Origin: Terriglobia bacterium
Lineage (GTDB): Bacteria; Acidobacteriota; Terriglobia; JAJPHL01
Direction of reading: 5' to 3'
NCBI GenBank assembly: GCA_021325275.1
Contig: JAJPHL010000011.1
Span: forward strand, 1 to 64,000
Length of the DNA stretch: 64,000 nucleotides
Numbering within the stretch: position 1 is the stretch's first letter; every line of letters starts with the position of its first letter. The notes below the pieces were generated by a model. The model ran no database searches, was not told the origin of the DNA, and saw only the letters and a list, made by a program, of their open reading frames with translations. A program made the translations under genes and the position numbers. Of the stretch, positions 15,839 through 42,337 are shown piece after piece.

Positions 15839-16717
15839 CTATCCAAATTTAACGCCGTATTCCTTGGCCGACGCGTTCGGCGTGACTCTCACAATTGATC
15901 CCAGGGTCTCCAGTGGCTGTTCGCCCTCGCGATAATGCATCGCCACTTGGATCATCTCGTCGAGCGCATACTCTTGCCTCGACTCGAAGGCAATTCCTCC
16001 GCGCGACACGTTGAGCGGCGCGACAATTTCGCTTGAGTTGTTGGTGCGGCGCACGCGCGCACGCGTCTTCATTTGGATCCGCCGGGAACCGCGCTTCTCC
16101 GCCCAGTTGATCGGAGGCGCCGCGACTTCTTCAGGCACAGGCGGCGGGGGCGGCGGCGTGAAAATCACTTCGGGCGCGCCGTCCGGCGGAGGCGGAGCTG
16201 CCGCAGCAGCGCCACGCGGCTCTTCCCTCTTCTGTGACGCCACTCGCCACTGTTCCGCCAGCCAAGACGCCGATTGCCAATCCGTTTCCTCCACGCATTG
16301 CGCGCAGTGTCGCCAGAAAACTTCGCCCGCATCGGCGCGCGTGACCTCGGCGGGGTCCATCTGCACCGATTCCTGCGTGCCGCAACTTTTGCAAACCAAA
16401 TGCAGGCGCGGCCGCGTGTCGACGGCGGGTTGCGGCGCGCCGCCGAAATCCTTCTCCCACACGTCGACGGTTTGATCCTTCAATCGCGCGCGGTACAAAC
16501 CGTTGGAATCCTGCTCTTCCACCAGGAATTCCGCTTGGTTCCCGTTGGTCTTGTTGAAGACGATGACCTCGGAGCCGGACGGAATGCGTTTGCGAATCGC
16601 CACCAGGATCCAGTCGCGCGCAACCACGGCGGTGGCCGTGTCTTCCACGAACATTTCGCCCTTGGAATCGGAGCCGTAAACGGTGATTGGAATCTTCTCG
16701 GTGAATTCTTTACTCAT
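15839..16717 (-). CDS. PilZ-domain protein with zinc-ribbon-like middle
   Basis: This 292-residue protein has a PilZ domain at about residues 205-292. R209-x3-R213 and the N236-x-S238-x2-G241 box are the two classical cyclic-di-GMP contacts. Residues 109-141 hold CKSC and CAQC pairs that could bind zinc. A proline-rich linker (about 174-201) joins the halves. The N-terminal 90 residues look like a small beta domain with no clear relative. It probably acts as a cytoplasmic c-di-GMP receptor; the output is unknown. The window also encodes a diguanylate cyclase at 40820. Confidence 0.85.
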   Translation of the reverse strand: MSKEFTEKIPITVYGSDSKGEMFVEDTATAVVARDWILVAIRKRIPSGSEVIVFNKTNGNQAEFLVEEQDSNGLYRARLKDQTVDVWEKDFGGAPQPAVDTRPRLHLVCKSCGTQESVQMDPAEVTRADAGEVFWRHCAQCVEETDWQSASWLAEQWRVASQKREEPRGAAAAAPPPPDGAPEVIFTPPPPPPVPEEVAAPPINWAEKRGSRRIQMKTRARVRRTNNSSEIVAPLNVSRGGIAFESRQEYALDEMIQVAMHYREGEQPLETLGSIVRVTPNASAKEYGVKFG

Positions 16718-26058: not shown

Positions 26059-26523
26059 ATGTCCGAGACCAACAAACCGACGGTACGCGATTTCATGACC
26101 GCCGACCCTACTACTTTGGGCCCGGACGAACCTCTTTTGCAAGCAGTCTTAACAGTTCGCTCGTTAAGCATACGCCACATTCCCGTCGTCAAGGACGGCC
26201 AGTTGGTGGGCCTGATCACCGACCGCGACCTCGCACGCGCGTCCCCATCGATTTTGGGGCGAACGTCGCCCGACGAGTACAATCAGGTCTTCCAGGCGAA
26301 CACGATCGATCGCGTGATGGTGAAGAATCCCACAACGATCAACGCCAACGCGTTGCTCGGCGACGCCGTCCAAATGATGCAAGAAAACAAGTGGGGATCG
26401 ATCCCCGTGGTCGACGACAGCGGCGCGCTAGTGGGCATTCTCACCAAGGGCGATGTGATGCGCTACGCCCTAAGCACCCTCGAAACCAGCAGTAGCGGCA
26501 GCTCCATCACCATAGACCTTTAG
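26059..26523 (+). CDS. CBS-pair domain protein
   Basis: This 154-residue protein consists of a Bateman module with two CBS motifs. The first has the core VRDFMTADPTTLGPDEPLLQA, HIPVVKDGQLVGLITDRDL; the second has DRVMVKNPTTINANALLGDA, SIPVVDDSGALVGILTKGD. Such pairs bind adenine nucleotides and regulate fused or partner proteins. No effector domain is attached, and no partner is evident. It is followed by the iterated hairpin at 26529 and then the chemosensory operon. Confidence 0.93.
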   Translation: MSETNKPTVRDFMTADPTTLGPDEPLLQAVLTVRSLSIRHIPVVKDGQLVGLITDRDLARASPSILGRTSPDEYNQVFQANTIDRVMVKNPTTINANALLGDAVQMMQENKWGSIPVVDDSGALVGILTKGDVMRYALSTLETSSSGSSITIDL

Positions 26524-26528
26524 GATCC

Positions 26529-26623
26529 AGTGCTGAGTGCTGAGTGCTGAGTCCTGAGTGCTGAGTTAAAACCCCAGCCTAGCGTTCTTTACTCAGCACT
26601 CAGCACTCAGGACTCAGCACTCG
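26529..26623. repeat. Hairpin of AGTGCTG heptamer units with slipped register
   Basis: The left arm (about 26529-26568) is five units of AGTGCTG, the fourth being AGTCCTG. The right arm (about 26588-26623) is the reverse complement of four units, with the variant second. The variant copies are one unit out of register, indicating gain or loss of a heptamer after the arms formed. It fills the 159-base gap between the CBS protein and cheA. Confidence 0.85.
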
Positions 26624-26682
26624 TTCCTAAGATTTGCCTCAGAAATGCTCACGTCGCCCGCGTTCCTAGCCGATGTCTAGCT

Positions 26683-28959
26683 GTGAGGATGCCCAGCGAA
26701 GTCCCCGACATCGACATTGAGGTCGTGCAGGAGTTTCTCGTGGAAAGCTACGAGAATCTCGACCGCCTCGACCGCGAATTCCTGGCGTTGGAAGAAAATC
26801 CCAGCGACCAGGCGACGCTCGCGGGAGTCTTCCGGACCATTCACACCATCAAGGGCACGTGTGGATTCCTCGGCTACAACAAGCTTGAGTCGGTGACGCA
26901 TGTCGGCGAGAACCTCTTAAGCCGCCTGCGCGACGGTCACTTGAAACTGACACCGGAAATCACCACCGCGCTGCTGGCGATGGTCGACGCGGTGCGCGAC
27001 ATGTTGCGCTCGATCGAGCACACGCATCGTGAGGGCGACGGCGATTACAGCGGACTGGTCGCGCGGTTGACAGAACTGAAGGATGGAGTCACGCGGCCGT
27101 CCGCGGATACCGCAGCGTCACCTGACGCAACCCGGAAAACACTAGGCGAAATTCTCGTCGAGACCGGCAAGATCACTCCCGAAGCCGCGCAGCACGCCGC
27201 ACGATTGCAGGCGGAAGGCGATCCGCGCCGCTTGGGCGAGATTCTAGTGGAAGAAGGACACATTCAGCCGCAAGAAGTACTAAACGCGCTGAACGTGCAA
27301 ACCGAGACGCGGGGAGCCGGCGTCGCCGACACCACCATTCGTGTGGACGTCGCGCTGCTCGACAAACTGGTTGATCTCGTCGGAGAGCTCGTCCTGACGC
27401 GCAACCGCATCCTGCAATTTGTTCCCGAACAGAACGATCCCGCGCTCGAGGCCGCGTCGCAACGATTGAATGCCGTCACCTCCGAGTTGCAAGAAGGCGT
27501 GATGAAAACGCGCATGCAGCCCATCGGCGGAATTTGGAGCAAGTTTCCGCGCGTCGTCCGCGACCTCTCGGCGGCGTGCGGCAAGCAAATCCGCGTGGAG
27601 ATGGAAGGCGAGGAAACCGAACTCGACAAGAGCATCATTGAGGCCATCAAAGATCCGCTGACGCATCTAGTGCGCAACAGCGCCGATCACGGCATCGAGA
27701 GCGCCGAGACGCGCCATCGGCTGGGCAAATCGCCGGAAGGCCGCATCTTGCTGCGCGCGTATCATGAAGCCGGTCAAGTCAACATCGTGATTTCCGACGA
27801 CGGCGCGGGCATCGATCCCGTGCGCATCAAGAACAAGGCCGTCGAATGCCAAATGGTCAGCGCCACGCAAGCCGCCAAGTTGGGCGATGGCGAAGCGCTG
27901 CAACTGATCTTTTTGCCGGGCTTCTCGACCGCGGAAAAAGTAACCAACGTTTCGGGACGCGGCGTGGGAATGGATGTCGTTCGGACCAACATTGAGAAGA
28001 TCGGCGGACTCATCGAACTACAAAGCCAGTTAGGAATCGGCACGACCGTGCGAATGAAGATCCCGTTGACGCTGGCCATCGTGCCCGCCCTGATCGTGGG
28101 CTTGGGCAGCGATGAGGGCGAAGAGCGATTCGCGATTCCTCAAGTGAGTCTGGTGGAGTTGGTGCGGATTTCCGACGGCGTTCACGGCATCGAACTGGTC
28201 CATGGCGCGCCGGTCTTCCGGTTGCGCGGGAGTCTGCTTCCGGTGGTGGATCTGGCCGTCGAATTTGCGAGCGGCGAGACTCAACCGCGCCGCAACGCCT
28301 GCATTATCGTGCTGCAATCGGGCGACAAACAATTTGGCCTGCTGGTCGACGCCATCCACGACACCGAAGAGATTGTCGTCAAGCCAATCGATCAACCGTT
28401 GAAGACCGCTTCCGTCTTTGCGGGCGCCACGATTCTCGGCGACGGCAAAGTGGCGTTGGTTTTGGACATTCCGGGACTGGGGCAGCGTGCGTCGGTGCTC
28501 AGCGAATCGCGCGAACGCATCCGTCAAGAAGCCCCGGCCGTGCCCGCGGAAGTCGTAGCGCGGCAATCCATGCTTGTTTTTGAAAATGGCGATTCCGAGC
28601 GCATGGCCATACCCCTGGCGCGCGTCAGCCGTCTCGAAGAAATCGATCGCGACCGCGTAGAAAAATGCCGCGGCCGGCAGGTGATTCAGTATCGCGGCCA
28701 GATCATGCCGCTCTTTCCGCTCTCATCCAGCGCCGGCGCGCACCGCGGCCCGCTCAACGTGATCGTCTGCTCGCGCCAGGGAAACGAAGTGGGACTGGTG
28801 GTCGAGAACATCATCGATGTCGTCGACGAGCGAATCACCCTTGGTCACGGACATGGACCAATCGTGGTCCGCGACCGGGTCACGAACCTGGTCGACGTCG
28901 ACGCGATCGTCGACCGCGTGCTGGCCGAATTTGCCGCGGAACAGGAAGTGCCGGCATGA
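26683..28959 (+). CDS. cheA: CheA-type chemosensory histidine kinase with MshEN-like linker motifs
   Basis: This 758-residue kinase has an Hpt domain with phospho-accepting H54 (TIHTIKGTCGFLG), a dimerisation region (DLVGELVLTRNRI), and an ATPase domain (N box HLVRNSADHGIES, DDGAGID, GRGVGMDVV). Two CheW-like domains follow, near 470-600 and 625-745. The usual CheY-binding P2 region is replaced by two 24-residue motifs, 153-176 and 183-206. Each reads (T/R)LGEILVE-x-G-x-I and ends in Gln, very like the c-di-GMP-binding MshEN motif. Start is GTG at 26683, or ATG at 26689. It overlaps cheW by ATGA. Confidence 0.95.
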   Translation: MRMPSEVPDIDIEVVQEFLVESYENLDRLDREFLALEENPSDQATLAGVFRTIHTIKGTCGFLGYNKLESVTHVGENLLSRLRDGHLKLTPEITTALLAMVDAVRDMLRSIEHTHREGDGDYSGLVARLTELKDGVTRPSADTAASPDATRKTLGEILVETGKITPEAAQHAARLQAEGDPRRLGEILVEEGHIQPQEVLNALNVQTETRGAGVADTTIRVDVALLDKLVDLVGELVLTRNRILQFVPEQNDPALEAASQRLNAVTSELQEGVMKTRMQPIGGIWSKFPRVVRDLSAACGKQIRVEMEGEETELDKSIIEAIKDPLTHLVRNSADHGIESAETRHRLGKSPEGRILLRAYHEAGQVNIVISDDGAGIDPVRIKNKAVECQMVSATQAAKLGDGEALQLIFLPGFSTAEKVTNVSGRGVGMDVVRTNIEKIGGLIELQSQLGIGTTVRMKIPLTLAIVPALIVGLGSDEGEERFAIPQVSLVELVRISDGVHGIELVHGAPVFRLRGSLLPVVDLAVEFASGETQPRRNACIIVLQSGDKQFGLLVDAIHDTEEIVVKPIDQPLKTASVFAGATILGDGKVALVLDIPGLGQRASVLSESRERIRQEAPAVPAEVVARQSMLVFENGDSERMAIPLARVSRLEEIDRDRVEKCRGRQVIQYRGQIMPLFPLSSSAGAHRGPLNVIVCSRQGNEVGLVVENIIDVVDERITLGHGHGPIVVRDRVTNLVDVDAIVDRVLAEFAAEQEVPA

Positions 28960-29390
28960 AAGCGTCCCAGCAATTCTGCACTTTCCACGTCGGACCGCTC
29001 TTTGTCGGCCTGGAAATCGAGCGAGTCCAAGAGGTGCTGCGCCCGCAACCGATGACCCGTGTGCCCTTGGCCGCGCGCGAAGTGAGCGGCCTGATCAATC
29101 TGCGCGGGCGCATCGTGACGGCGCTCGATCTGCGCCGCCGTCTGGACCTCCCCGATCGCGCGCGCGAGAGCCAACCGATGAACGTAGTCGTTCGCACGAG
29201 CGAAGGCGTGGTCAGCCTGCTCGTCGACAGCGTCGGCGACGTGGTCAACACCACCGGCGAAACGTTCGAGCGTCCGCCTGAAACGCTCGCGGCATCGGCG
29301 CGGCGTTTGATTCGCGGCGTCCACAAGTTGCCGGAGCGGCTTCTCCTGGTGTTGGATGCCGACGAAGCCGCCGAAATCCCCAGCGCCTAG
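28956..29390 (+). CDS. cheW: Chemosensory adaptor CheW
   Basis: This 144-residue adaptor couples receptors to CheA. It has the CheW beta fold with [36 protein letters not shown] (the typical INLRGxxxPV-like loop) and [12 protein letters not shown]. It overlaps the end of cheA by ATGA at 28956-28959, which supports translational coupling. The length is typical. It is the second gene of the operon cheA-cheW-mcp-cheB-cheR. Confidence 0.95.
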
Positions 29391-29410: not shown

Positions 29411-31063
29411 ATGAATCCATACAAATTCTTCACTCGCACCATCGCTCGCAAGATCGGTTCGGCCTTTAGCCTCGTGCTGTTGATGTTCGCCGCGGCCGTC
29501 GGCATCGTTCTGATGCAAGTTTCCGCGCAACACGAAGCGAACACGCATCTGATCCGCTCGCGCACGCCCACCGCGATGGCGGCGGAGTCGGTGCTGAGCG
29601 GCCTGTACATCAGTTCGAGCGCGTATCGCGGCTACATGCTGACCAGCGATGACAGATTCCGGGTGCAACGCGAGCACGCGTGGTCCGAGCGAATTTATCC
29701 CGGCCTTGCCCGCCTGCACAAACTCGCGCCGGACTGGAATTCGCCCGAAGATAGCCGTCTGATGGCCGGCCTGGAAAAACTCGGTCCGGAGATCGAACAT
29801 CTTCAGCAGCAAGCCATGGACCTCAATCGCAAGGATCCTCAAGCGGCTGCGGCCATGATCTCCAACCAGATCGCGCCGGCCAACGAGGCGTTCCAGGCGC
29901 CATTGGAAGAGTTGGCGAAGGCCAACATCACAGCGCTGGAAGACGAGGGTGAATCGGACCTTCGGTTCGCCGACCGGGCGCGTTGGATTGTATTGTCTTT
30001 GCTTTTCGCCGCGCTCACTCTGGGAACGACCGTGGCCTGCCTCGCGGTGCGAACCATCACGCGGCAGCTCGCCGATTTGGCACGCACGGCGCAATCCCTC
30101 GCCGACGGCGATCTCACGGTGCATCTCGAACAAAGTTCCAACGATGAAGTCGGTCGAGTATTCGGGCCGCTCGCGCGCCTCACAGAAAGTTGGCGCGCTG
30201 CGATCGGTCAAACGTCGGTGGCCGCGCAGGGCGTCGCGGCGTCGTCGGAAGAGCTCTCCGCGGTCAGCAGTCAGATGGGCGCGAATGCCGAGGAGACTTC
30301 CGCGCAATCGAACGTGGTGGCGGCGGCGGCCGAGCAAGTGAGCAAGAGCGTGCGCACCGTGGTCACGGGCGCGGAAGAAATGATGGCCAGCATCAAAGAG
30401 ATCGCCAAGAGCTCCACTGACGCGGCACGCGTGGCCTCGCAAGCGGTGCGTGTGGCGGAAACAACCAACGCCACCGTCGGCAAACTCGGCGAGTCGAGCG
30501 CGGAAATCGGCAAAGTCATCAAGGTGATCACTTCGATCGCGCAGCAGACCAATCTCCTGGCGCTGAACGCGACCATCGAAGCGGCGCGCGCCGGAGAAGC
30601 GGGCCGCAGCTTCGCCGTGGTGGCGAATGAAGTCAAGGAACTGGCCAAGGAAACCGCCAAGGCCACCGAGGACATTTCCCAAAAGATCGAGGCGATTCAA
30701 ACCGACACGCGCGGCGCGGTGGAAGCGATCGGCGAGATCGGCGCGATCATCCACCAGATTTACGACATTCAGAACACCATCGCCACGGCGGTGGAGGAAC
30801 AAAGCGTCACGACCAGCGAGATGGGACGCAATTTGACCGAAGCGGCGCAAGGCACGTCGGAAATTGCGCAAAACATCAGCGGTGTCGCGTCCACCGCACG
30901 CTCGACGGCGGAAGGCGCGAGCCATTCGCAGAGGGCAGCGTCGGAATTGGCGCGTATGGCGGCCGAGTTGCAACGTCTGGTGTCGCAATTCGATTTGGAG
31001 TCGCGGCCTTCGCCCGTAGACGAGCGCGGAAACCTGAAGATTGTCAGCCGCCGCGCGGCTTAG
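29411..31063 (+). CDS. Methyl-accepting chemotaxis protein
   Basis: This 550-residue receptor has a first membrane helix near 16-36 and a short four-helix-type periplasmic sensor (about 37-192). The second helix is near 193-213, followed by a HAMP domain and a cytoplasmic signalling coiled coil. The hairpin tip is [30 protein letters not shown], the kinase-contact signature. There is no C-terminal NWETF-type tether for CheR. An AAGGA ribosome site precedes the ATG. It is the only receptor in the operon, and the ligand cannot be read from sequence. Confidence 0.94.
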
Positions 31064-31069
31064 GATCAC

Positions 31070-32206
31070 ATGAACAAGATTCGCGTGCTCGCGGTGGACG
31101 ATTCCGTCGTCATTCGTAAGCTGGTGGCGAGCGTGCTCTCCTCCGACCCGGCCATCGAACTCGCCGGCACCGCCGCCAACGGAAAAATCTGTCTTGCCAA
31201 GATTCCGCAAGTGAATCCCGATGTGGTGACGCTTGACGTGGAAATGCCCGAGATGGACGGCCTAGAGGCGCTCACGGAAATCCGCAAGCTCTATCCGAAG
31301 ATCCAAGTGATCATGTTCAGCACCGCGACCGAGCGCGGCGCGACCACCACAATCGAAGCGCTCTCACGCGGCGCGGCCGATTACGTAACGAAACCGGCGA
31401 ACGTCGGTAGCGTTACCGCGGCCATCGACAATCTGCGCGCGCAACTGATGCCAAAGATCAAGACGCTGTGCGGAGGTGCTATCGCCACGCCCGCGCCCGC
31501 CCCGGAAGTTGTACCGCTTGTACATCGCGTGATCTCGCCGCGCCCCGCGGCCAGTCTCCCAGCGCCGCGGACAGCCGGCGGAATGATCGATGTCGTAGCG
31601 ATCGGCGTTTCCACTGGCGGTCCCAATGCGTTGATGGAAGTGTTACGCGCTCTGCCTGCGGACTTTTCCGTACCTGTCCTGATCGTCCAACACATGCCGG
31701 CGATCTTCACGCGAATGCTCGCCGAACGATTGAACGCAAGTTGCGGACGCCCGGTGCGCGAAGCGTCCAACGGCGTTGCACCACGGCGCGGCGACGTTTG
31801 GATCGCGCCCGGCGATTGGCACATGGAAGCGCGACGCAACGGCGGCTCCGTTTATCTGCACACGCATCAAGCGCCGCCGGAAAATTCCTGCCGTCCCGCG
31901 GTCGACGTGCTCTTCCGGTCCGTCGCGCAAGCGTATGGATCGCGGGCGCTCGCGGTGATCCTGACGGGAATGGGTCAAGACGGTTTGCGCGGCGCGAGAG
32001 AAATTCACGCGGTCGGCGGAACGATCTTTGCGCAGGACGAAGCCAGTTCCGTTGTGTGGGGCATGCCGGGATTCGTGGCGCAAGACGGAATCGCCAGCCG
32101 CATCTTGCCGCTGTCGCAAATCGGCGGAGAGATTGCGCGCGTCGTGCGGGAGTCGAGGCAGCCGTTGCCCAAAATCGAACCGCGCGAAAGGCTGGCGATC
32201 TCATGA
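31070..32206 (+). CDS. cheB: Protein-glutamate methylesterase CheB
   Basis: This 378-residue protein has an N-terminal receiver domain with phospho-acceptor D56 (VTLDVEMPEMDG) and conserved K108. A C-terminal methylesterase domain holds the triad S181 (GVSTGGP), H208 (VQHMP) and D304 (TGMGQDG). It removes methyl groups or deamidates glutamines on the receptor, activated by phosphorylation from CheA. It starts 6 bases after the receptor stop and overlaps cheR by ATGA (32203-32206). Confidence 0.96.
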   Translation: MNKIRVLAVDDSVVIRKLVASVLSSDPAIELAGTAANGKICLAKIPQVNPDVVTLDVEMPEMDGLEALTEIRKLYPKIQVIMFSTATERGATTTIEALSRGAADYVTKPANVGSVTAAIDNLRAQLMPKIKTLCGGAIATPAPAPEVVPLVHRVISPRPAASLPAPRTAGGMIDVVAIGVSTGGPNALMEVLRALPADFSVPVLIVQHMPAIFTRMLAERLNASCGRPVREASNGVAPRRGDVWIAPGDWHMEARRNGGSVYLHTHQAPPENSCRPAVDVLFRSVAQAYGSRALAVILTGMGQDGLRGAREIHAVGGTIFAQDEASSVVWGMPGFVAQDGIASRILPLSQIGGEIARVVRESRQPLPKIEPRERLAIS

Positions 32207-33072
32207 ATCGCGCGGACTTTGATTTCGTCCGCTCGCTGGTGAAGCAGCGCTCCGCGATCGTCCTCGACGACGGCAAGGAGTATCTCGCCGACGCGCGCCT
32301 CGCGCCCGTTGCGCACCAGCAGGGCTTCGCGTCGGTCGACGAATTGGTGCGGCAACTGCGCACGCGGCTCTCCAACGATCTCTCTCGCCGTGTCGTAGAA
32401 GCGATGGCCACAAACGAAACGTCGTTCTTCCGGGACGGAAATCCCTTCGAAGCACTTCGCAAACACATTCTGCCCGCACTCATCGAGCGTCGCTCGGCGG
32501 AACGCACCTTGCGCATTTGGTGCGCGGCGTGTTCAACGGGGCAAGAGCCGTACAGCGTGGCGATGCTGCTTCGCGAACATTTTCCGCAACTCCAAGGATG
32601 GCGCATTTCCCTGCTCGCCAGCGATCTCGGTATTGGCGTGCTCGATCATGCGCGCACCGGACGGTATTCGCAACTGGAAGTAAATCGCGGCTTGCCGCCC
32701 ACGATGCTCGAAAAATACTTCCAGCGTTGCGCGACCGTCGGCCGCGCCGGCACGGCGGAGTATCAAATCGACGATTCGCTGCGCACCACCGTCGACTTTC
32801 GCCCGATCAACCTGATTGAACCGTGGCCGGCCATGGCGCCGTTCGACATTGTCATGCTGCGAAATGTACTGATCTACTTCGACGCGGAAACGCGCAAGAC
32901 CGTCCTGCGGCGCATTCTTTCATTGATGCGTCCCGACGCCTATCTTCTGCTCGGCGGTTCGGAAAACAGTATGCACCTCGCCGATCGCATGGAGCCCGTG
33001 CAACTCGGGCCCTTCACCTGCTGTCGCCTGCGAATACCGAGGCCCGAAACCCGAGACCCGAGGTCCAAGTAA
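32203..33072 (+). CDS. cheR: Chemotaxis protein methyltransferase CheR
   Basis: This 289-residue enzyme methylates receptor glutamates with S-adenosylmethionine. The N-terminal helical domain includes NETSFFRDGNPFEALRKHILP, and the SAM fold has IWCAACSTGQEPYSVAMLL and FDIVMLRNVLIYFD. The C-terminal tail IPRPETRDPRSK is read from a CCCGAGA-type repeat and is probably not part of the native fold. The start at 32203 sits in the ATGA overlap with cheB. It ends the operon; no cheY, cheD or cheC follows. Confidence 0.95.
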   Translation: MNRADFDFVRSLVKQRSAIVLDDGKEYLADARLAPVAHQQGFASVDELVRQLRTRLSNDLSRRVVEAMATNETSFFRDGNPFEALRKHILPALIERRSAERTLRIWCAACSTGQEPYSVAMLLREHFPQLQGWRISLLASDLGIGVLDHARTGRYSQLEVNRGLPPTMLEKYFQRCATVGRAGTAEYQIDDSLRTTVDFRPINLIEPWPAMAPFDIVMLRNVLIYFDAETRKTVLRRILSLMRPDAYLLLGGSENSMHLADRMEPVQLGPFTCCRLRIPRPETRDPRSK

Positions 33073-40819: not shown

Positions 40820-42337
40820 ATGGAAGGGAATAATCGCCGCGGCCGCCACGGGGAAATGGTGTACCGGCCGTCGCGTGAACATCCGGCCGAACTCGCGGTT
40901 CAAGCGTGGGACGAAGAAGAGAAATTTGCCAAAATTTTTCGCTTTAATCCCGTGGCGATGTCGATCATCGACGCGCAACACGGCTGTTTTGTGGAAGTAA
41001 ATCCCGAGTTTTGCCGCATGACCGGCTACTCGCGCGACGAAGCCATCGGCCGCACGGCGTCGGAATTGGGACTTTCCTGGCAGGGGTCGAACAATGACGT
41101 TTCGCAGGATCCGGTGACGGGACGCGCCGCTCTCGACGTCGAGGCGACGGTGTGCCACAAAAACGGCGACCGTCGCGTCGCGCTGCTTTCCTGCGAAGCG
41201 CTCGAACTCGCCGGACAGGAATGCGTGCTCGCGGCGTTTCGCGACGTCACCGAAAGCCGCCGCATGGAAGAAGAACTGCGCGTGATGAATCTGCGTCTGC
41301 GCGAGTGGGTGGTGGAACTGGAGCGCCGCACGGCGGACATCAGCTTGCTCGGCCAAATGGCCGACCTTTTGCAAACCTGCCTGACCACCGCCGAGGCGTA
41401 CGAAGTGGTCGCGCATTCCTCGCGCTTGATTTTTCCGGAAGCCGCCGGCGCGCTCTACTTGCGCGAACCCGGCACCCAACAGATGGGAATCGCCGGAAGT
41501 TGGAACGGCGACTTCACGTCAGAACACACCTTTGAAGCGGAACAATGCTGGGCGCTGCGCTTGGGCCGCACGCATTCCATGGGCTTCGGCGAGCCGGCGC
41601 TTTTCTGCCAGCATCTGCCGCATCCGGTGGCCGATTCGCTGGTGTGCGTTCCTTTGATGACCAAGGGAGAATCGCTCGGCGTCTATCATTTGCGATTTAA
41701 TCGCCGCGAGACACGCGAGATTGGTCCGCGGCGCGCCGTGCAGGAATTAGCGCAAGCCGTGGCGGAACACGTGGCGCTCGCGCTGGGAAATTTGCAACTG
41801 CGTGAAACGCTGCGCCAGCAATCCACGCGCGACCCGCTCACCGGACTCTACAATCGCCGGCACATGGAGGAATCGCTGGGCCGCGAATTGCTGCGCGCGC
41901 AGCGCGCCGGCCGTCCGCTCGGCGTGATTCTGTTCGATCTGGATCACTTCAAGCGCTTCAACGACGCGTTTGGTCACGATGCCGGCGACTACTTGTTGCG
42001 CGAGCTCGCCGCGCGGGTCACCGGTTTCTCGCGCAAGGAAGATATCGCCTGCCGTTTCGGCGGCGAGGAATTTGTGCTGATCATGCCGGAAGCGACGTTG
42101 GAAATCACGATACAGCGCGCTAACTTCCTGCGAGAAGAAGTGAAGCGGATGACCTGGGAAAGCCGCGGGCGCACCCTTGGGCCCGTTACGCTATCGTGCG
42201 GAGTGTCGGCGTTTCCGAATCACGGCAAAAACGGCGACTCGTTGCTGCACGCCGCCGATCTCGCCCTGTACCAAGCGAAGAACGAAGGGCGCGACCGCGT
42301 AGTCTGCGCGCCCGAGCGGCAATCCGCGCGCGCCTAA
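40820..42337 (+). CDS. Diguanylate cyclase with PAS and GAF sensory domains
   Basis: This 505-residue protein has a PAS domain at about 35-155 (FNPVAMSIIDAQ, FCRMTGYSRDEAIGR), a GAF-like domain at about 190-330, and a C-terminal GGDEF domain (about 340-500). The active-site GGEEF is at 414-418, and the inhibitory I-site RxxD is intact at R405-D408. The protein should make cyclic-di-GMP with product inhibition. No membrane segment is evident. The ATG at 40820 was preferred because AGAAAGG lies 8-9 bases upstream; upstream codons are less protein-like. Confidence 0.94.
   Translation: MEGNNRRGRHGEMVYRPSREHPAELAVQAWDEEEKFAKIFRFNPVAMSIIDAQHGCFVEVNPEFCRMTGYSRDEAIGRTASELGLSWQGSNNDVSQDPVTGRAALDVEATVCHKNGDRRVALLSCEALELAGQECVLAAFRDVTESRRMEEELRVMNLRLREWVVELERRTADISLLGQMADLLQTCLTTAEAYEVVAHSSRLIFPEAAGALYLREPGTQQMGIAGSWNGDFTSEHTFEAEQCWALRLGRTHSMGFGEPALFCQHLPHPVADSLVCVPLMTKGESLGVYHLRFNRRETREIGPRRAVQELAQAVAEHVALALGNLQLRETLRQQSTRDPLTGLYNRRHMEESLGRELLRAQRAGRPLGVILFDLDHFKRFNDAFGHDAGDYLLRELAARVTGFSRKEDIACRFGGEEFVLIMPEATLEITIQRANFLREEVKRMTWESRGRTLGPVTLSCGVSAFPNHGKNGDSLLHAADLALYQAKNEGRDRVVCAPERQSARA

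Follow-up and report, generated by a model that had tools for sequence, protein, structure and literature searches.

A predicted MshEN domain in the linker of a Terriglobia CheA, eroded in its first half-motif, and its relatives in about nine phyla

Introduction

In most descriptions, the kinase CheA lacks its own input domain; the messenger cyclic di-GMP (c-di-GMP) governs the switch from motile to sessile life. With a c-di-GMP receptor built into CheA, this messenger would have a direct route to the chemosensory kinase. Whether such a receptor is present is the question raised by a cheA gene in a stretch of 64,000 nucleotides of Terriglobia DNA (the whole of which is hereafter the window), for which a preliminary description had proposed a c-di-GMP-gated kinase with an MshEN-like module in the place of the CheY-binding domain.

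Results

The CheA protein and its operon

All the Pfam domains of a CheA are present in the window protein, namely, Hpt, H-kinase_dim, HATPase_c and CheW, the last of these twice (Table 1). Residues are numbered from the GTG at 26683; an ATG at 26689 is a possible alternative start. The auxiliary P2 (CheY-binding) domain produced no Pfam match in this protein up to E = 10, and only ~45 residues separate the Hpt domain from the putative MshEN module. The gene order of the operon is cheA-cheW-mcp-cheB-cheR, with no cheY gene, so that both absences noted in the preliminary description, of P2 and of cheY, are borne out. P2 is missing from more than half of CheAs (PMC10782961); its absence is common and says nothing about c-di-GMP.

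In related che operons, the receptor gene is followed, before cheB, by an extra frame that matches the receiver of CheB (L066, 10336-10783; L115, 12478-12886; L084, 12225-13092); the window operon lacks this frame. Between a CBS-domain gene and cheA, at 26520-26630, there are heptad arrays, (GAGTGCT)n, in opposite orientation, which form an inverted repeat with a perfect arm of 25 nt, extending to as much as 40 nt at 90%. In the genome, the 18-mer CTCAGCACTCAGCACTCA is present in 31 copies, compared to 0 for the reversed control.

Table 1 Features of cheA, its operon and other window genes considered here
Feature	Position	Strand	Description
cheA	26683..28959	+	758 aa, GTG start; Hpt, putative MshEN module, dimerisation, ATPase, two CheW domains
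CheA P1/Hpt domain, residues 13-106	26719..27000	+	Pfam Hpt, E 2.5e-15; phosphoacceptor motif HTIKG
MshEN motif I TLGEILVETGKITPEAAQHAARLQ, residues 153-176	27139..27210	+	eroded at positions 1 (Thr), 17 (Ala) and 21 (Ala)
Spacer AEGDPR, 6 residues	27211..27228	+	GDPR common to most of the closest module-bearing CheA relatives
MshEN motif II RLGEILVEEGHIQPQEVLNALNVQ, residues 183-206	27229..27300	+	ligand-contact positions intact
CheA P3 dimerisation domain, residues 217-276	27331..27510	+	Pfam H-kinase_dim, E 4.5e-17
CheA P4 ATPase domain, residues 324-463	27652..28071	+	Pfam HATPase_c, E 5e-15
cheW	28956..29390	+	Pfam CheW, E 2.2e-28; overlaps the cheA stop
Chemoreceptor gene (mcp)	29411..31063	+	HAMP and MCPsignal (Pfam)
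cheB	31070..32206	+	receiver and methylesterase; sole receiver protein of the operon
cheR	32203..33072	+	reading frame; homologous cheR in the operons of relatives
PilZ domain	15845-16099		in the window
GGDEF protein	41825-42298		in the window

Identity of the linker module

As had been described, residues 153-176 and 183-206 form two 24-residue motifs of the MshEN pattern, the first led by Thr and the second by Arg, each with Gln at position 24, and joined by a spacer of 6 residues compared to 5 in the MshEN consensus; two such motifs with a short spacer between them make up an MshEN domain. Gly3 and Gln24, the residues that hydrogen-bond the ligand, are present in both motifs. The Ala residues at positions 17 and 21 of motif I had not been recorded previously. 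Of the residues suited to guanine stacking (R/K/L at position 1, L/I/V at positions 17 and 21), motif I has none whereas motif II has the full set. A single half-motif arose by chance in 34 of 20000 shuffles of the CheA protein.

In a phmmer search of the PDB, the CheA fragment matched PilF (E = 8e-9), MshE (E = 1e-3) and other PilB/PilF N-domains, and the informative matches were all MshEN/GSPII; a profile built from 49 CheA modules gave 14 PDB matches, all of them to PilB/PilF/MshE (the best, 1.6e-33, to PilF). The AlphaFold2 model, for which the 49 module sequences served as input, consists of four helices, with 46 residues at pLDDT > 90 and values of about 90+ over the motifs. When this model was compared to the PDB with Foldseek, the top 14 chains were MshEN/PilF/PilB N-domains, and nothing beyond such chains exceeded a probability of 0.2; the best match was c-di-GMP-bound MshE (5htl; rmsd 1.0-1.1 Å, probability 1.00), with no E-value below 0.03, modest figures that are normal when a domain is this small. 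Because the sequence searches of the PDB agree with the AlphaFold2 and Foldseek results, we take the predicted fold of residues 153-206 to be that of MshEN_N.

The MshEN identity proposed in the preliminary description thus holds in both sequence and predicted fold. Of the checks suggested there, the structure prediction came out in its favor, with a four-helix MshEN-like model at ~1.0 Å rmsd from 5htl, and the Pfam search did not: PF05157 (MshEN) was matched neither by the window CheA nor by any of the 49 CheA modules scanned. The missing match reflects how far the Pfam model reaches and is not evidence against the fold, given that the profile search of the PDB still finds MshEN. The MshEN_C subdomain is absent from the window CheA, which is no objection to binding since MshEN_N alone suffices in MshE (KD 0.35 μM; PMC5013675).

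A chance resemblance, or a PATAN/DUF4388 domain in place of MshEN, is a highly improbable explanation. Of the Pfam models, DUF4388 does score best on the fragment (E 3.5e-4), with 21 bits where the cut-off is 25, but this match spans only ~45 of the 122 profile positions (34-76), and the PDB searches by sequence and by fold yield MshEN only. Identification by Pfam alone was set aside on account of the small part of the DUF4388 profile that is covered; membership in PATAN/DUF4388 was rejected, with the whole profile not matched and the score below the cut-off, and so was chance similarity, on the strength of phmmer, the profile search, Foldseek and the shuffle test. The weak DUF4388 match at 27139-27300 recurs in 26 of the 49 relatives, which suggests that part of DUF4388 may itself be MshEN-like.

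Spread of the module among CheAs

The combination of MshEN with CheA has been known since 2016, when CheA appeared among the MshEN fusion proteins in the main text of Wang et al. (PMC5013675), and the window CheA is a further member. Among the loci fetched (from 396 genomes of the window's phylum, a species-genome scan and 398 Pseudomonadota genomes), there are 98 distinct CheA modules of the MshEN type, a count that comes from a sampling that favors module-bearing CheAs and is not a frequency among all CheAs. Uniqueness of the module in the window CheA was rejected on the basis of these searches. The 98 modules come from about nine phyla, i.e. Acidobacteriota, Gemmatimonadota, Nitrospirota, Planctomycetota, Pseudomonadota, Thermodesulfobacteriota, Myxococcota, Actinomycetota and Omnitrophota, with many metagenome bins that could be misassigned. 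In the Pseudomonadota sample (the phylum to which G445, source genome of the Pseudothauera locus L104, belongs), 54 of the 398 genomes match at E ≤ 1e-16. Near-canonical modules are found in relatives from cultured Pseudomonas, Shewanella and Solidesulfovibrio.

When module presence is mapped onto the P3-P4 core tree, 13 gains or losses are required, at least 7 of which are forced by well-supported branches. The module is patchily present in the CheA clade of the window, where the sister rows L007 (with) and L011 (without) differ, and steadily present in the proteobacterial and Nitrospira clades; orthologous CheAs of the same operon type were found entirely without it.

The half-motifs are separated by a single residue in 25 of 72 CheA modules (L040, L044, L050, L068, L074 and others). 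The AlphaFold monomer model of this variant is of low confidence (pTM 0.38) and yielded no MshEN match; it is possible that the one-residue-spacer module is domain-swapped in the CheA dimer.

The main text of the genome-wide 2023 survey of CheA architectures (Berry et al.; PMC10782961) mentions neither MshEN nor c-di-GMP, and no functional test of MshEN in kinases was found in the literature searched.

Conservation of ligand contacts in the family

Across the 98 HMM-aligned CheA modules, Gly3 is invariant (100% in motif I and 100% in motif II), Gln24 is nearly so (94.6% and 100%, respectively) and positions 17 and 21 are aliphatic nearly throughout, with the structural turn Gly10 less well kept (80% and 60%). 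In 5htl, the guanines are bonded by the amides of Gly3 and of the residue after it and are stacked upon by positions 1, 2, 17 and 21, and the bonds to ribose and phosphate come from Gln24 (PMC5013675). Conservation of the CheA modules thus tracks ligand contacts more than the fold, which supports but does not prove binding. Because the residues expected to contact c-di-GMP are nearly invariant, most CheA modules are plausible c-di-GMP receptors.

Erosion of the window copy

At position 17 of motif I, the window copy has Ala, compared to Leu/Ile/Val in all other relatives; Ala at position 21 is likewise confined to the window copy (Leu/Val/Ile/Met/Phe elsewhere), and Thr at position 1, where Arg/Lys/Leu is usual, is shared with one other row of the 98 modules. 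Of the four residues between which the first guanine (Gua1) is sandwiched, three are accordingly replaced, Thr/Ala/Ala standing for the equivalents of Arg9/Leu25/Leu29, and the Leu39 equivalent is kept. The contact score of the window module, 9 of 12, is tied for the lowest, whereas 42 of 72 modules score 12. Position 1 is unusual in the window's subclade as well, with Asn, Pro, Leu, Ser, Ala or His in motif I and mostly His in motif II. In the order of the window genome, no close relatives of the window CheA were found in which selection on the Ala pair could be gauged. The second module-bearing CheA of the genome (L057/L143; G000:C55:70342-72129) has a 5-residue spacer and Ala for Gln24 in motif I; the MshEN motifs of the pilus/secretion ATPase copies (L001, L004) look canonical.

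In characterized MshEN domains, mutation of a single hydrophobic contact costs more than 10-fold in affinity, and L54A/L58A double variants are still stabilized by c-di-GMP in DSF (PMC5013675), so that binding may survive the placing of Ala at stacking positions. R/K/L are all tolerated at position 1 and, in one motif, even Pro (GSPII-B, GSPII-C; PMC11731258); a GSPII-A construct with an Arg to Ser reversion at position 1 of motif II, which also carries Ala at position 3, showed no measurable binding (PMC12002112). With half of its predicted binding pocket lost, the window copy may be impaired in c-di-GMP sensing. Tight gating of the window kinase by c-di-GMP appears unlikely given the Ala pair at the first-guanine positions together with Thr at position 1: a KD of 1 μM or lower for the window module would be unlikely, and any binding below 50 μM would have nearly even chances. 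The retention of Gly3 and Gln24 in motif I argues against complete relaxation.

Discussion

The closest structural counterpart of the window module is MshEN of Vibrio cholerae MshE (5htl; PMC5013675), with which it shares the two 24-residue half-motifs, the predicted four-helix fold (1.0 Å), Gly3 and Gln24 in both motifs and the contacts of motif II; it differs in the Thr/Ala/Ala of motif I, in the spacer (6 residues, not 5), in the lack of MshEN_C and in being part of a chemosensory kinase rather than a pilus ATPase. PilF is the best PDB sequence match, its consensus variants still bind c-di-GMP, and Lys at position 11 of the window module also occurs in GSPII-C motif I; PilF differs from the window copy, however, in that the Leu contacts of motif I are kept. 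GSPII-A has fewer consensus contacts and does not bind c-di-GMP. The MshEN-CheAs of Wang et al. 2016 show the same domain combination, but the main text of that work (PMC5013675) maps neither the position of the module nor its spread or degeneration, of which the eroded motif I of the window copy is a case. Caulobacter CckA and ShkA, histidine kinases that are themselves c-di-GMP receptors, would work in a similar way; they are not CheA and, in the table of PMC10519070, no MshEN is listed for them, a pseudo-receiver site being given for ShkA and none for CckA.

The c-di-GMP-gated CheA of the preliminary description therefore fares differently at two levels: it gains for the family, where Gly3 and Gln24 are near-invariant among the 98 modules, and is weakened for the window protein by the Ala pair and the Thr at position 1. 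The diguanylate cyclase and PilZ receptor that had been pointed out are indeed encoded in the window, but with 12 GGDEF and 11 PilZ matches in the whole genome, both are ordinary and uninformative, and their proximity was rejected as support for gating.

We consider it slightly more probable than the sum of its rivals that the window CheA carries, between P1 and P3, a free-standing MshEN_N of a widespread family, and that this copy is eroded, most likely with weak or no binding, and serves mainly as a structured linker. The domain would be a four-helix unit of the P1-P3 linker, free of MshEN_C. For the family, we infer that c-di-GMP would be bound across both half-motifs, that the bound ligand would order the linker, and that the ordered linker would change the access of P1 to the P4 ATPase domain, whereby a second-messenger input would be added to that of the chemoreceptor. 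In the window copy, the first half-site has lost its guanine-stacking residues, the second half-site and both ligand-bonding Gln remain, and c-di-GMP would probably be bound weakly or not at all at physiological levels. A broader form of this reading, in which the linker MshEN gives CheA a direct c-di-GMP input that is widespread across many phyla and for the most part unannotated, domain-swapped across the dimer in its one-residue-spacer form and weakened in the window lineage, is credible but falls somewhat short of an even chance.

It is rather unlikely that, as first modelled, the window CheA is a true high-affinity c-di-GMP-gated kinase despite its substitutions. An intact motif II, the retained Gly3 and Gln24, a predicted fold that superposes on c-di-GMP-bound MshE and PilF, the tolerance of PilF for variation at position 1 (PMC11731258) and a messenger that is probably made, given the number of GGDEF matches, would all fit such a kinase; the replaced Gua1 sandwich, with two Ala unique among the 98 relatives, and the affinity cost of even single hydrophobic mutations (PMC5013675) would not. 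Less probable again is a protein-docking element, e.g. for a PilZ protein, as with the Xanthomonas PilB N-domain, or for CheB/CheY in replacement of P2. Among the Foldseek matches is the N-domain of X. citri PilB, solved together with PilZ (7lkm, 7lkn), neither cheY nor P2 is present, and the GDPR spacer loop is conserved in the closest relatives without being demanded by the c-di-GMP consensus, but near-invariance of Gln24 and Gly3, which bond c-di-GMP, is unexpected for a pure docking surface, and orthologous CheAs of the same operon type do without the module altogether. That the module is a variable linker with no regulatory role, its motif inherited and decaying, seems improbable: the patchy distribution in the window's clade and the erosion of motif I in both module-bearing CheAs of the genome are in line with decay, but there is good preservation of motif II and of the core of the fold, and several large clades conserve the module throughout.

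Under the preferred reading of an eroded member of a widespread family, the window CheA is a naturally eroded contrast rather than the best candidate for a c-di-GMP-gated CheA, and the interest lies more in the little-explored CheA-MshEN family than in the window copy. The set of 98 modules, with its near-canonical copies in cultured relatives, makes this family directly testable. If the proposed role is true, second-messenger and chemosensory signalling would be joined in one protein.
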